Shown here piece after piece: positions 54,270 through 59,204 of a DNA stretch of 64,000 nt. Below the pieces are notes generated by a model. That model saw only the letters and a list, made by a program, of their open reading frames with translations, was not told the origin of the DNA and did no database searches. Origin of the DNA: Paraburkholderia acidisoli (lineage in GTDB: Bacteria; Pseudomonadota; Gammaproteobacteria; Burkholderiales; Burkholderiaceae); the NCBI RefSeq assembly GCF_009789675.1, contig NZ_CP046914.1, positions 1 to 64,000 of the forward strand. The letters are read 5' to 3'. Within the stretch, counting starts at the first letter, position 1. Each line of letters begins with the position of its first letter. The translations under genes were made by a program, and so were the position numbers.

Positions 54270-55724
54270 TCAGCCGGGCGATGGAGTCGGGTTCGCCAAT
54301 GCTCGCGCGCGGACGAGCGCGCGCGTGATGTCGCCGAGCACGGTGTCGCGCGCGCTCTCGTCCTGCTGGCGCAATGCGAACGAAGGATGCCAGGTGGCGA
54401 CGGCCCAGCCGCCATGGATCTCGAACGGCGCGCTCACGTAGTCGCGCAGGCTGACCTTCTCGCGCAGCAAGGCGGTGAGCGCCGTTGCGCCGAGCGCCAC
54501 GATCACGGCGGGCCGCACCGCGTTCAGTTCGCGTTCGAGCCAGTAGTAGCACGCTTCGACCTCGCGCTGCGCCGGCGTTTTGTGCAACCGGCGTTTGCCG
54601 CGCGGCTCCCACTTGAAATGCTTCACGGCATTGGTCAGATAAACCTGCTCGCGCGACAAGCCCGCTCGCTCGATGGCAACGCTGAGCAGTTGCCCCGCCG
54701 GTCCGACGAACGGTTGCCCGCTCAGGTCTTCCTGATCGCCCGGTTGTTCGCCGAGCAACATGATTCGCGCACGGGCGGGTCCCACGCCGCTCACCGCCTG
54801 CGTGGCGTGACGCCACAAGTCGCAACGCCGGCAAGCGTCCAGCGAAGAGGGTGGTTCGCGAACGGGTTGCGCCGTCTCGGCCTCGACCGCGATCACCTTG
54901 CCGTCCAGCGAGCCCACACCGCTTGCCTGGGCGAGCCGCCGCGCGCCGCTTCTGGCTTCGCTGATCATGCCGGGAATCAGGTGGGCCTCAGGCAAGCCCT
55001 TCCAGAAACGCACCGGCATATGCTGCTCCAGCGCTTCTTCGTTCAAGCGCGCCGGGTTGAAGGTGCTGCGGTAGTACGCGATCCACAGCGCCTCGGCCTC
55101 GTCTTCGGAGTCGTAGCGGTGATCGCCCGGCAACGCGCCGCGTGCGTCCAGATGCAATGCGCCGCCGTCCCAGAACGCGGCGCCGCGAGGTGTGGTGATG
55201 AGCCACGAAGATCGGCCCATGCGCTGCGCGAAATGCTCCGCCGCCCATTCGAGCACGTCGTGGTCGGGCTCGTACCACGCCACGTATTCGGGCACGGCCT
55301 GGGTGTCGCGCTGCTTGCGAAAGCGCACATAGGCGATCATGTCGTGCTGCGCGCGGCGCACGCTTTTGGCCATGCGATACAGGCGAGAGCCGTCGATATC
55401 GGCGGCCGATGCCACCGAGCGGTCGCCGTGATGCCAGCGCCACAGCACCTTGTACAAAAACGCCCAACGCTCCGGGTCGCGAAACGACGCGGCGTCTTTG
55501 AGCAAGGCGGCGAGTTCCTTCGACACCTGCACTTCGGCCATGCGAGGCGATGCCGCGGCGGGACTGCGCGAATCCGGCGTGTAGTCGAGCGATGCTTGCT
55601 GCTGTGGCGCTCCGGTCTCCGCGAGGCGCCATTGAATCGACTCCGGCCGGAGGTCTTCCGCGAGCGCCGCCAGCGAGGCCGCGCGCCACGCGGCAAAGCG
55701 ATCTTCGATCACGATCGTGCGCAT
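54270..55724 (-). CDS. Fused DUF4130 - UdgX family uracil-DNA binding/glycosylase protein
   Basis: A 484-residue two-domain protein. Residues about 1-255 are the DUF4130 domain that accompanies radical SAM partners (WAFLYKVLWRWHHG). Residues about 290-475 are a UdgX-type uracil-DNA glycosylase domain with LLGEQPGDQEDLSGQPFVGPAG and the distinctive KRRLHKTP loop; His381 corresponds to the histidine that bonds covalently to the abasic sugar in UdgX. Cys298, Cys301 and Cys392 could bind Fe-S, while the expected fourth position is Ala410. It lies 9 bp behind the radical SAM gene in a probable LexA-controlled operon. Confidence 0.9.
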   Translation of the reverse strand: MRTIVIEDRFAAWRAASLAALAEDLRPESIQWRLAETGAPQQQASLDYTPDSRSPAAASPRMAEVQVSKELAALLKDAASFRDPERWAFLYKVLWRWHHGDRSVASAADIDGSRLYRMAKSVRRAQHDMIAYVRFRKQRDTQAVPEYVAWYEPDHDVLEWAAEHFAQRMGRSSWLITTPRGAAFWDGGALHLDARGALPGDHRYDSEDEAEALWIAYYRSTFNPARLNEEALEQHMPVRFWKGLPEAHLIPGMISEARSGARRLAQASGVGSLDGKVIAVEAETAQPVREPPSSLDACRRCDLWRHATQAVSGVGPARARIMLLGEQPGDQEDLSGQPFVGPAGQLLSVAIERAGLSREQVYLTNAVKHFKWEPRGKRRLHKTPAQREVEACYYWLERELNAVRPAVIVALGATALTALLREKVSLRDYVSAPFEIHGGWAVATWHPSFALRQQDESARDTVLGDITRALVRARALANPTPSPG

Positions 55725-55733
55725 GAACCGGCC

Positions 55734-56945
55734 TCACAACAACGCGAGTTGCACCGGCGGTGGCGTGAGCGCGCGGCGCAGTTGCTCGGACGAGGCATCT
55801 TGCTGGGCCGCGCGATAATCCTGCGTCACCACGAACGGGCGGATCTTGTCCATGGGGCAGCGCAGGCGCACGAGATCGTCGTAACGGACGCGCCGCGTAC
55901 GCCGCAGTTCCACGAGACGTTTGGCGTTACGCATGCCGATGCCGGGCACGCGCGCGATCATGCGCAGCGGCGCGCGGTTGAGGTCGACCGGAAAATGTTC
56001 GCGATGCGCCAGCGCCCACGCGAGCTTCGGGTCGATTTCGAGCGCGAGGTCGCCGCTGTTTTCGAACAGTTCGTTTGCATTGAAGCCGTAGCCGCGCAAC
56101 AGGAAGTCGGCTTGATACAGCCGGTGTTCGCGCAGCAGCGGCGGCGCCTGCGCGGGCAAGGCGGACGGACTGTCGGGGATGGGGCTGAACGCCGAGTAAT
56201 AGACGCGCTTGAGCTTGAACGCGCTGTAGAGCGATTCGGCCGTTTGCAGGATGGTGCGGTCGTTCGTGGGGTCGGCGCCAACGATCATTTGCGTGCTTTG
56301 CCCGGCCGGCGTGAAGGGCGGCGCCTTCGTTTCGGCCTGCGCTTCTTCCTGACCGAGCCGGATCGTTCCCATCGCCAGCTTGATGGTGCGCACGTTCTTT
56401 TCGGGCGCGAGGCGCGCGAGACCGCCGTCGGTTGGCAATTCGATATTCACGCTCAGACGGTCCGCATAGCGTCCGGCTTGCGCAATGAGCTCGGGGTCGG
56501 CGTCGGGAATGGTCTTGAGATGCAGATACCCGCGGAATTGATGGTCTTCGCGCAGCGACTGCGCCACGCGCACCAATTGTTCCATCGTGTAGTTGGACGA
56601 CTGGATCACGCCCGAACTCAGAAACAGGCCGTCGATGTAATTGCGCCGGTAAAAGTCGAGCGTGAGGTCGACCACTTCCTCGGGCGTGAAGCGCGCGCGC
56701 GGCACATTGCTCGAGCGCCGGTTCACGCAGTACTGGCAGTCGTACAGGCAAAAGTTGGTGAGCAGGATCTTGAGGAGCGACACGCAGCGCCCGTCTGGCG
56801 TGAAGCTGTGGCAGATGCCCGCGCCGGTGCTCGCGCCCAGCCCCGAAACGCCGCGTGAACCGCGTTTGGGCGCGCCGCTGCTGGCGCACGAAGAGTCGTA
56901 TTTCGCCGCGTCAGCCAGAATCTCGAGCTTTTGTTGCAGTTCCAC
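55734..56945 (-). CDS. Putative DNA modification/repair radical SAM protein (UdgX partner)
   Basis: A 403-residue radical SAM enzyme of the type found beside UdgX/DUF4130. The 4Fe-4S motif is C66-x3-C70-x2-C73 (NFCLYDCQYCVNRRSS), with further cysteines at 20, 45 and 54. A C-terminal helix-hairpin-helix (MIARVPGIGMRNAKRLVELR) suggests DNA contact. The reaction is not established for this family. It is first in the operon, and a LexA box ends 11 bp before its start codon, so expression upon DNA damage is expected. Confidence 0.9.
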   Translation of the reverse strand: MELQQKLEILADAAKYDSSCASSGAPKRGSRGVSGLGASTGAGICHSFTPDGRCVSLLKILLTNFCLYDCQYCVNRRSSNVPRARFTPEEVVDLTLDFYRRNYIDGLFLSSGVIQSSNYTMEQLVRVAQSLREDHQFRGYLHLKTIPDADPELIAQAGRYADRLSVNIELPTDGGLARLAPEKNVRTIKLAMGTIRLGQEEAQAETKAPPFTPAGQSTQMIVGADPTNDRTILQTAESLYSAFKLKRVYYSAFSPIPDSPSALPAQAPPLLREHRLYQADFLLRGYGFNANELFENSGDLALEIDPKLAWALAHREHFPVDLNRAPLRMIARVPGIGMRNAKRLVELRRTRRVRYDDLVRLRCPMDKIRPFVVTQDYRAAQQDASSEQLRRALTPPPVQLALL

Positions 56946-56956
56946 TTTGGCACCAA

Positions 56957-56976
56957 TACTGTATATCTATACAGTA
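56957..56976 (-). promoter_or_regulatory. LexA (SOS) box
   Basis: TACTGTATATCTATACAGTA, with CTGT-N8-ACAG core at 56959-56974. It differs at one position from the 20-bp Escherichia coli LexA consensus and fits the CTGT-N8-ACAG form used by beta-proteobacteria. It lies immediately upstream of the radical SAM start, where bound LexA would block transcription. No other gene starts nearby, so the box serves this operon only. Confidence 0.92.
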
Positions 56977-57093: not shown

Positions 57094-57777
57094 CTAGACA
57101 TTCAGGCGGAATCCCGCGCCATAAACCGATTGCACCAGTTCCTCGTTCGGCGCGATCGCTTCGAGCTTGCGGCGTATCTTGCGCACATGACTGTCGATAG
57201 TTCGATCGTCCACGATACGGCCGTCCGTATAGAGGCGGTCCATCAACGCATTGCGCGAAAAAATCTGCGCCGGCCGGCTCGCCAGCGTGGCGAGCAACCG
57301 AAACTCGATGGGCGTGAATTCCACCGCAACGCCGTGATACGTCACGCTCAACGCCGCCTCGTTCAATTGCAGCGGGCTGCTCTCGGCCCGCGCATCCGCG
57401 CGCACGCGCCGCAGAATGGTTTTCACGCGCGCCACCAGTTCGAGCAGACTGAACGGCTTGCAGATGTAATCGTCCGCGCCCAGTTCGAGGCCTAGCAGCC
57501 GGTCCACTTCCTCCACCTGCGCGGTCACCATGATGATGGGCACGTCGCTGTACGCGCGCAGGTCGCGGCAGATATCGCGGCCGTCGCGGCCCGGCAGCAT
57601 CAGGTCGAGCACGATCATGTTCGGCATGCGTTCCGCCACCGCCTTTTCCACGTCGAGTCCGTTGCGCACCCAGCGCGTGGAGAAACCCGCCGAACGCAGG
57701 AAGTCGGTCATCAGCATGGCGAGTTTCGGCTCGTCCTCGACCAGCAGGATTTCGGCGGTGGGATCGTTCGCGCTCAC
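57094..57777 (-). CDS. OmpR/BaeR-type response regulator
   Basis: A 227-residue two-component regulator. The receiver domain has ILLVEDEP at the N terminus, phospho-acceptor Asp58 (MIVLDLMLPGRDG) and KPFSLLELVARV; the C-terminal winged helix has TPIEFRLLATLASRPAQIFSR and DDRTIDSHVRKIRRKLE. A GTG start with AGGAG upstream overlaps the kinase stop by 4 bp. It is encoded divergently from an RND efflux operon and probably activates it, as BaeR does for multidrug pumps. Confidence 0.92.
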   Translation of the reverse strand: MSANDPTAEILLVEDEPKLAMLMTDFLRSAGFSTRWVRNGLDVEKAVAERMPNMIVLDLMLPGRDGRDICRDLRAYSDVPIIMVTAQVEEVDRLLGLELGADDYICKPFSLLELVARVKTILRRVRADARAESSPLQLNEAALSVTYHGVAVEFTPIEFRLLATLASRPAQIFSRNALMDRLYTDGRIVDDRTIDSHVRKIRRKLEAIAPNEELVQSVYGAGFRLNV

Positions 57778-59204
57778 GGCGTCTCCTCGGGGCAAGGGAG
57801 TTGGATGGCGATCCAGAGTCCGCCTTGCGGCGCCCGGGCGGCGGAAATGGCGCCCCGGTGCGCTTCCATGATGCTCTTGCAGATCGGCAAGCCGAGCCCC
57901 GCGCCGCCCGTGGAGCGGCTGCGCGAGCCTTCCACGCGATAGAAGCGGTCGAACAGCGCGGCATGGGCCGTGTCCGGCACGCCGGGGCCGCTGTCCAGAA
58001 TGTCGATATGAATGCGCGCGGCGTCCTGGCGGATGCGAACCTGCACCGCCGCGCCTTCGGGCACGTAGCGCAAGACGTTCTGGAAGATATTGAAGAACAC
58101 TTGCTGCAGGCGCCGCTCGTCGCCGTGCACCCAGCACGGTTCGCCGGGAAGGTCGGTGGTCAGCGCGATGCGCGCCTCGGCAAGCGGCCGCCGGATCGTG
58201 CTCAACACTTCTTCCATGGCTTCGGCGACGTCGACGAGACCGAAGTGATAGCGCAACGCGCCCACGTCCGAAAGCGAGAGCTGGTACAGATCGTCCACGA
58301 GACGATTCAGGCGCGCGACCTCGGTGGAGAGCGAGCGCATGGCTTCCGTCGACATTTCGCGCACGCCCACTTCGAGCGCCTCCACTTCGCCGCGAATGAC
58401 CGCGAGCGGCGTGCGCAGCTCGTGCGAAATATCGGCGAATAGCGCGGCGCGCACGCGCTCGTTGCGTTCGAGCGTTTGCGCGAGGTTGTTGAAGTCCGCC
58501 TCGAGTTGCCCCAGTTCGCCCGCCGACACCACGGGAATGCGCGCCTGAAAGTCGCCGCCCGCGAGCACGTGCGTCGCGCGCGCGATGCGCTGCAAGGGCA
58601 GGCCGAGCGCGCGCGCGATCCAGAGCGAGATCATCACGGCCGTGAGCATGGCCGCCACCGCAAGCGCCCAGCTGGCGTCGCGCTGCGTGCGTTGCAACCG
58701 CAGGTCGCCGGCTTCCGTGACTTCCTGCACGGGCACGATCACGAGCCAGCCCACCGTTTTGCCGTCGACGACCACCGGCCGGCGCGGCGCGCCCGCGGCG
58801 ATCTCGCGGTTGCCCGAGAGATACGCGCCGTTCGCATCGAGCAGCGAAAAGCGCAGGTTCGCGCCCACGAGGTCGGCGATGGGCGGCGGCGGAAAGTTGC
58901 TGTCCACGAGCGAGGTGCGCGGATTGGGCAGCATCAGCTGATGCCAGACATGGCGGTTCGCGCGCAGGAACGCCCAGCTGCCGTGCTCGCGATACGCGGC
59001 TTCCAGCGGGGCCACGCTCGCGTCGAGACGCTTGATGTCCTGCTGCTCCAGATAGCCGAGAAAGCCGTGCTCGAAGCTGATGCGCGCGCCTAGCGACATC
59101 GCGCCGATCAGCACGATATTGACGACCACCATGGCGACGAACAGTTTGGTCGTGAGGCCGAGCGGGTGTTTGGCGAGCACCGATCGAAGGGCGGCAGAGA
59201 TCAT
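57774..59204 (-). CDS. Sensor histidine kinase (BaeS-like)
   Basis: A 476-residue membrane kinase: TM helix 1 at about residues 19-39, a periplasmic loop to about 177, TM2 at 178-200, HAMP near 200-250, dimerisation helix with His261 in FADISHELRTPL, and an ATPase domain with NVLRYVPEG, DSGPGVP and GGAGLGLPICKSIMEAH. The ATG 59204 (MISAALRSVL) is the likely start; a longer frame to 59240 is possible. It senses an envelope stimulus and phosphorylates the coupled regulator at 57094. Confidence 0.9.
   Translation of the reverse strand: MISAALRSVLAKHPLGLTTKLFVAMVVVNIVLIGAMSLGARISFEHGFLGYLEQQDIKRLDASVAPLEAAYREHGSWAFLRANRHVWHQLMLPNPRTSLVDSNFPPPPIADLVGANLRFSLLDANGAYLSGNREIAAGAPRRPVVVDGKTVGWLVIVPVQEVTEAGDLRLQRTQRDASWALAVAAMLTAVMISLWIARALGLPLQRIARATHVLAGGDFQARIPVVSAGELGQLEADFNNLAQTLERNERVRAALFADISHELRTPLAVIRGEVEALEVGVREMSTEAMRSLSTEVARLNRLVDDLYQLSLSDVGALRYHFGLVDVAEAMEEVLSTIRRPLAEARIALTTDLPGEPCWVHGDERRLQQVFFNIFQNVLRYVPEGAAVQVRIRQDAARIHIDILDSGPGVPDTAHAALFDRFYRVEGSRSRSTGGAGLGLPICKSIMEAHRGAISAARAPQGGLWIAIQLPCPEETP

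Follow-up and report, generated by a model that had tools for sequence, protein, structure and literature searches.

A predicted LexA-controlled radical SAM and DUF4130-UdgX operon in Paraburkholderia acidisoli

The gene pair COG1573-COG4277 has previously been placed under SOS control, by report or by prediction, in other phyla: the available part of PMC8565304 describes such an operon in Bacteroidetes and cites earlier reports of it from Verrucomicrobia and Alphaproteobacteria. Here we examined an operon in the first 64,000 nucleotides of contig NZ_CP046914.1 of Paraburkholderia acidisoli (the window), in which a radical S-adenosylmethionine (SAM) gene is followed by a gene for a fusion of DUF4130 with the uracil-DNA glycosylase (UDG) domain UdgX. 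The available part of PMC3765255 predicts that DUF4130 is an enzyme related to mutagenesis and links it to UDGs and to radical SAM proteins resembling SplB; that paper was the only one to name DUF4130 in the literature searched, which covers few subscription papers. Base editing and uracil mapping make use of UdgX, whose cellular role is called largely unknown; H109 is the covalent residue of the M. smegmatis protein, and RecA-dependent pathways or proteases are named for adduct removal (PMC10359453, available part). No paper treating UdgX and a radical SAM protein together was encountered in the same literature, with its few subscription papers, in agreement with an earlier note on this DNA that the chemistry of the radical SAM partner is not established.

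The locus shares its pair of gene families and its predicted control by a LexA-type repressor with the COG1573-COG4277 operon, so far as the available text of PMC8565304 describes it. It differs in carrying a beta-type palindromic box and a DUF4130-UdgX fusion as partner, whereas the Bacteroidota partners examined consist of DUF4130 without a UDG. No family-level difference was noted from the linked NCBIfam families TIGR03916, TIGR03915, and TIGR03914, whose cut-offs were all passed by the two proteins and whose models are silent on SOS control. The motifs of M. smegmatis UdgX are likewise shared, but here UdgX is fused to DUF4130 and adjoins a radical SAM gene. Judged from its sequence, the operon is an SOS operon and a Burkholderiales member of the reported kind.

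The earlier note had described two minus-strand genes 9 base pairs (bp) apart, encoding a radical SAM protein and the fusion, and both the coordinates and the family models agree with this description. The first protein belongs to TIGR03916 (555.6 bits against a cut-off of 343.5, NCBIfam), with Pfam Radical_SAM also above its cut-off, and the DUF4130 part belongs to DUF4130/TIGR03915 (Pfam DUF4130, 123.2 against 27). The nearest proteins in the database came from Paraburkholderia. The features are as follows.

56957-56976: LexA (SOS) box TACTGTATATCTATACAGTA, one mismatch to the 20-bp consensus
55734-56945, minus strand: radical SAM gene (TIGR03916 rSAM_link_UDG; COG4277-type radical SAM/helix-hairpin-helix), GTG start, 403 amino acids
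56784-56888, minus strand: stretch with codons C20, C45, H46, and C54, candidate second metal cluster, conserved in 199/199 aligned loci
56727-56750, minus strand: CX3CX2C radical SAM cluster motif, codons C66-C70-C73, 199/199 aligned loci
55896-55991, minus strand: helix-hairpin-helix motif, residues 319-350, presumed DNA contact (Pfam HHH_3; ComEA-related 2duy)
55725-55733: intergenic gap of 9 bp
54270-55724, minus strand: DUF4130-UdgX fusion gene, ATG start, 484 amino acids
54984-55712, minus strand: DUF4130/TIGR03915 part, residues 5-247, 200.7 bits against a cut-off of 112.25
54339-54980, minus strand: UdgX domain/TIGR03914 part, residues 249-462, 245 bits against a cut-off of 189.95; structure 6ajo
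54738-54752, minus strand: UdgX motif A GEQPG, residues 325-329, with conserved Q327
54582-54596, minus strand: UdgX R-loop KRRLH, residues 377-381, from the 6ajo alignment, with conserved H381

The LexA box and its conservation

The box TACTGTATATCTATACAGTA ends 11 bp (56946-56956) before the start codon of the radical SAM gene. It is the only match in the window to the 20-bp consensus at three or fewer mismatches, and no such match was found in 100 shuffles. It is also the only CTGT-N8-ACAG in the window, for which 0.23 sites are expected by chance and 22 of the 100 shuffles contained one. Genome-wide, this looser pattern occurs at 28 sites compared to 26 for the reversed control pattern, which is near chance level, so the significance of the box rests on the 20-bp match. 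A scoring matrix was trained on eight boxes that adjoin SOS-type genes in this genome, among them lexA, recA, dinB, and imuA, with the operon's own box left out; it gave that box 28.8, within the range of the training sites (21.2-29.1) and far above the next best position in the window (6.2). The box is confirmed as given in the earlier note, which had placed it one base off the consensus and 11 bp before the start.

Besides the window's own site, 21 of the 28 genomic sites, located in 20 stretches, were inspected. The genes named by family models beside other boxes were lexA (two boxes), recA, dinB, imuA, and a PA0069-family radical SAM gene; a uvrA-like gene fell below the UvrA cut-offs, its stretch being cut, and an imuA-like gene near a box on contig C5 was assigned by eye. 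Both lexA (locus L002) and recA (L005) are preceded by a box, as in an SOS regulon, and the box of the operon resembles a LexA regulon site in its nearness to the start codon and its likeness to the genome's other boxes. The upstream-side neighbour is a response regulator (57094-57786) on the same strand as the operon, and the box is therefore directed at the radical SAM operon alone. A promoter scan of the minus strand upstream of the radical SAM gene detected nothing resembling a promoter. SOS (LexA) control of the operon is predicted with high confidence.

The PA0069-family (NF033668) radical SAM gene lies on contig C1 at approximately 2213078-2214256 (L004:879-2057), with a box, TACTGTACGAATATACAGTA, 13 bases before its start when counted from the 16-bp core. 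Small uncharacterised open reading frames lie directly behind near-perfect LexA boxes at two further places in this genome (L007, approximately 2030-2443; L013, approximately 2094-2375), and neither had an NCBIfam match.

We then compared relatives of the operon within the phylum. The search of 200 same-family genomes matched 38, from which G313 and G325 (gene in pieces) were left out; that of 150 same-order genomes matched 11, from which G015 (weak) and G073 (in pieces) were left out; and that of 398 same-phylum genomes matched 99, from which 15 below the cut-off were left out. Together these gave 119 intact loci. The radical SAM family is patchy, being above cut-off in 37/200 same-family, 10/150 same-order, and 84/398 same-phylum genomes. 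A strict LexA-type box within 120 bases of the radical SAM start was found in 106 of the 119 loci, and a check for boxes before orthologous operons, on which the earlier note had staked its claim, came out in its favour.

These boxes were of two motif types, with CTGT-N8-ACAG at 52 loci and a GAAC-N7-GAAC/GTTC-N7-GTTC direct repeat at 54, compared to seven and 11 sites, respectively, in the 534,073 bases that make up the remainder of these loci. The palindromic type was found in the same family (36/36), elsewhere in the same order (6/10), and elsewhere in the same class (10/19), and in 24 of the 52 palindromic loci the distance from box to start was 13 bases. All 54 remaining phylum loci, which are probably mainly Alphaproteobacteria, carried the direct repeat; the published LexA motif of Alphaproteobacteria is GTTC-N7-GTTC (PMC8565304, available part). 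The tie to the damage response that the earlier note drew from the box is thus upheld, as the box is real and conserved in position in orthologous operons.

Two other upstream elements were considered as divergent LexA motifs and rejected. One is CTGNACGANCGTACA, common to L021, L022, and L024 of the same-order family f26, which have no strict box; it is present at the radical SAM locus in the three genomes and in one other place, and it is therefore not a regulon-like motif. In family f57 (L099, L100, and L104), the palindrome TCTCAT-N3-ATGAGA is more like a terminator hairpin and was rejected because it is confined to the radical SAM locus in each of three genomes. Each of these two groups, from the same order or class, possesses its own upstream element nearly unique to the locus.

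A scan of genome contigs across phyla contributed the best 80 of 591 confirmed loci, ranked by likeness to L057; this locus is itself DUF4130-only, so the set is biased, and a survey of 198 Bacteroidota genomes served as the unbiased check. By record titles, 70 of the 80 loci were Bacteroidota. CTAA-N5-TTAG preceded 24 of the 80 and GGA-N5-TCC preceded 12 (35 distinct loci, all Bacteroidota), compared to background expectations of 0.6 and 3.4; both are motifs of non-canonical Bacteroidetes LexA proteins in the available part of PMC8565304. A Heliobacterium locus carried GAAC-N4-GTTC, and the strict GAAC-N7-GAAC was found at one Clostridiales locus. The divergent neighbours of the radical SAM gene in 12 Bacteroidota loci formed one protein cluster, and 11 of these loci had GGA-N5-TCC upstream of the radical SAM gene; the one member scanned was an HTH_3 and Peptidase_S24 repressor.

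The loci with this probable S24-type repressor divergent to the radical SAM-DUF4130 operon were L166, L167, L169, L170, L175, L178, L187, L193, L195, L201, L215, and L219; in most of them, two to four GGA-N5-TCC sites separate the two. In Chryseobacterium (L151-L153), GAAC-N7-GAAC lay 67-78 bases upstream of the radical SAM gene, where another SOS motif is expected in Bacteroidota. The Moraxellaceae loci (L147-L150, L191, and L192) had none of the scanned motifs and no common palindrome; L147-L149 share a CGACA...TGTCG inverted repeat approximately 130 bases upstream, which is absent in L191 and L192.

Core and accessory parts of the operon

All 199 loci (119 same-phylum and 80 cross-phylum) were searched for DUF4130 and UDG domains with profiles built in this analysis. 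DUF4130 lay downstream of and on the same strand as the radical SAM gene in 193/199 loci, while a UDG (UdgX) domain was found at 94/199, fused in 93 of them. The pair without UdgX was encountered at 99/199 loci, including stretches that end soon after DUF4130 and where UdgX could be missed (L096, L136, L165, and L025; L136 and L025 were covered by a genome-wide check). The DUF4130-only proteins were mostly 250-265 amino acids long, and Pfam gave DUF4130 and no UDG in all five tested.

The genome-wide check covered 32 genomes, comprising 30 of the 99 DUF4130-only loci and two proteobacterial loci without nearby DUF4130. TIGR03914 (UdgX) was above cut-off in none of the 30 genomes with DUF4130 alone and in two of the 32, both without nearby DUF4130 and with UdgX approximately 3.5 kilobases on. 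Among the 198 Bacteroidota genomes, TIGR03914 was above cut-off in none and TIGR03915 in 62, and no UDG domain was found at the 70 Bacteroidota radical SAM loci. Because DUF4130 is constant and UdgX is absent from many loci and genomes, radical SAM-DUF4130 is very probably the SOS-linked core and UdgX an accessory. The earlier note's SOS-operon interpretation accordingly stands for the LexA box and the damage-response link and fails for its unit of radical SAM and UdgX.

The accessory domain itself has the features of UdgX. It matches the M. smegmatis structure 6ajo (E = 4.4e-45) with GEQPG, KRRLH for KRRIH, and HPS aligned, and the TIGR03914 score, the GEQPG motif A, and the KRR[I/L]H R-loop with its covalent histidine together identify it. 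H381 aligns with the covalent H109, and the predicted catalytic residues are conserved across the UdgX domains (Q327 in 91/93, H381 in 92/92). UdgX likely matters within the window's own family, because the fusion was found at 36/36 same-family loci; it was also found at 49 of the 54 loci in the rest of the phylum.

These frequencies, together with the conserved covalent histidine and the need of UdgX for some adduct-removal step (PMC10359453, available part), would suit an explanation in which UdgX is central and its covalent adduct with DNA is resolved or reversed by the radical SAM protein. However, UdgX is absent at 99/199 radical SAM-DUF4130 loci, at least three stretches being too short to show it, and the 30 DUF4130-only and 198 Bacteroidota genomes gave no hit above the UdgX cut-off. 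Since UdgX is missing from so many loci, action on its adduct would not be the general function of the radical SAM protein, and we consider this explanation decidedly unlikely.

Radical SAM features and the proposed mechanism

Six cysteines (C20, C45, C54, C66, C70, and C73) and H46 were invariant in 199/199 aligned radical SAM proteins, with the last three cysteines forming the CX3CX2C motif. The other three, C20, C45, and C54, are candidate ligands of a second Fe-S cluster, and the chances for and against this appear about equal. The structural model is a radical SAM barrel with a predicted local distance difference test (pLDDT) score of 76 overall and below 50 at residues 15-55 and 66-80. 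Lipoyl synthase and HydE were nearest among the matches listed, which also included NifB, biotin synthase, and viperin; identity to the lipoyl synthase/HydE-type barrels is approximately 14%. No helix-hairpin-helix tail is known in barrels of that type. In the operon's protein the tail was detected by Pfam HHH_3 (E = 2.2e-4; 21.7 bits, below the cut-off of 27) and by profile against 2duy (E = 0.0025). The single-sequence search found no solved relative at E 0.001, the best matches being a ComEA-related helix-hairpin-helix protein (E = 0.01) and HydE (E = 0.1). The DUF4130 model (pLDDT 82) showed a weak, unconfirmed likeness to DHH phosphoesterases (RecJ/Cdc45-like), and no solved relative was found by sequence for either the radical SAM protein or DUF4130.

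SplB, itself a radical SAM protein associated with DNA damage, is a precedent for lesion repair by this class of enzyme, and a direct reversal of UV lesions similar to spore photoproduct lyase would fit a radical SAM gene under SOS control. The operon's protein differs from SplB in its three extra invariant cysteines and its helix-hairpin-helix tail. Its NCBIfam matches were limited to TIGR03916 and Radical_SAM alone was above the Pfam cut-off, with no match to a spore-lyase family model at E 0.001 (NCBIfam) or E 1 (Pfam), and the folds listed above point elsewhere. A lyase of this kind is therefore unlikely.

Overall, we consider it probable that the locus is a LexA-repressed SOS operon with radical SAM-DUF4130 as its working unit and UdgX as an add-on, and this appeared to be the best explanation. 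On activation of RecA, LexA would leave the box and the radical SAM protein and its partner would be made together. The helix-hairpin-helix tail probably holds DNA, and the pair would most likely perform a radical SAM reaction on damaged DNA left by SOS repair or translesion synthesis. In the family of this bacterium, the UdgX domain at the C-terminus of DUF4130 would remove uracil and remain covalently attached to the abasic site, a bond that would bring the unit to, or shield, uracil and abasic sites during SOS. For DNA-lesion chemistry by the radical SAM protein itself, we regard the case as evenly poised. More tentatively, radical SAM-DUF4130 might be an unrecognised, widespread SOS repair enzyme, with two clusters, DNA access through its tail, and a new lesion chemistry, in which DUF4130 would read lesions and UdgX would be a later-fused covalent trap delivering the complex to uracil and abasic sites.

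Several observations weigh against this explanation. A strict box was missing in 13 of the 119 same-phylum loci, six of which had one half-site mismatch (mostly CTGT-N8-CCAG) and seven of which had no box, and 40 of the 80 cross-phylum loci lacked any strict scanned motif. The compared loci are kin and hence not independent. Weaker UDG-family matches were found elsewhere in 11 of the 30 DUF4130-only genomes (three of approximately 150 bits) and in 146 of the 198 Bacteroidota genomes, so a UDG encoded elsewhere could work in trans with radical SAM-DUF4130. Additionally, the region of the extra cysteines was modelled at pLDDT below 50.

Neighbouring genes were assigned by eye, with imuB-like genes in four loci (L067, L074, L076, and L094), a UvrA-like ATPase in seven Bacteroidota loci, and a LigD-type ATP-dependent DNA ligase in four (L119, L164, L213, and L214). 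The imuB-like neighbours, and the gene-neighbourhood suggestion for DUF4130 in the available part of PMC3765255, would accord with a thymine- or uracil-modifying or mutagenesis enzyme that alters DNA bases during SOS. No modified base is known, however, and neither the radical SAM protein nor DUF4130 has a solved relative by sequence, and we judge such an enzyme improbable.

Relatives of the radical SAM protein (approximately 49-58% identity) were found in 10 phage records (CAKLQH020000003.1, CAKLQF020000004.1, and eight human-gut phage contigs) and in 158 plasmid records, many from Rhodobacter-type bacteria such as Phaeobacter. These records, and the binding of uracil-DNA by UdgX, could be read as signs of a defence unit against phages, which would trap phage DNA that contains uracil. 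Against this stand the long-term SOS control, the repair-type neighbours, and the lack of any PADLOC match up to E 1 for both proteins (0 families), and a defence role appears highly improbable.

Meaning for the SOS response

Compared with the sources cited here, the Betaproteobacteria LexA literature lying outside the comparison, what is new is the extension to Burkholderiales, the division into a core and an accessory, and the three extra invariant cysteines. The Bacteroidetes SOS "uracil-DNA glycosylase" may be a DUF4130 protein filed under COG1573 and not a glycosylase, because no UDG was found at the 70 Bacteroidota loci and none was above the UdgX cut-off in the 198 genomes. By placing UdgX, in a soil-type bacterium, in a predicted SOS operon whose radical SAM-DUF4130 core is constant, this analysis makes the partners of UdgX and the inducing condition testable. 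The conserved radical SAM-DUF4130 unit shifts the question from uracil excision to a radical reaction in the damage response.

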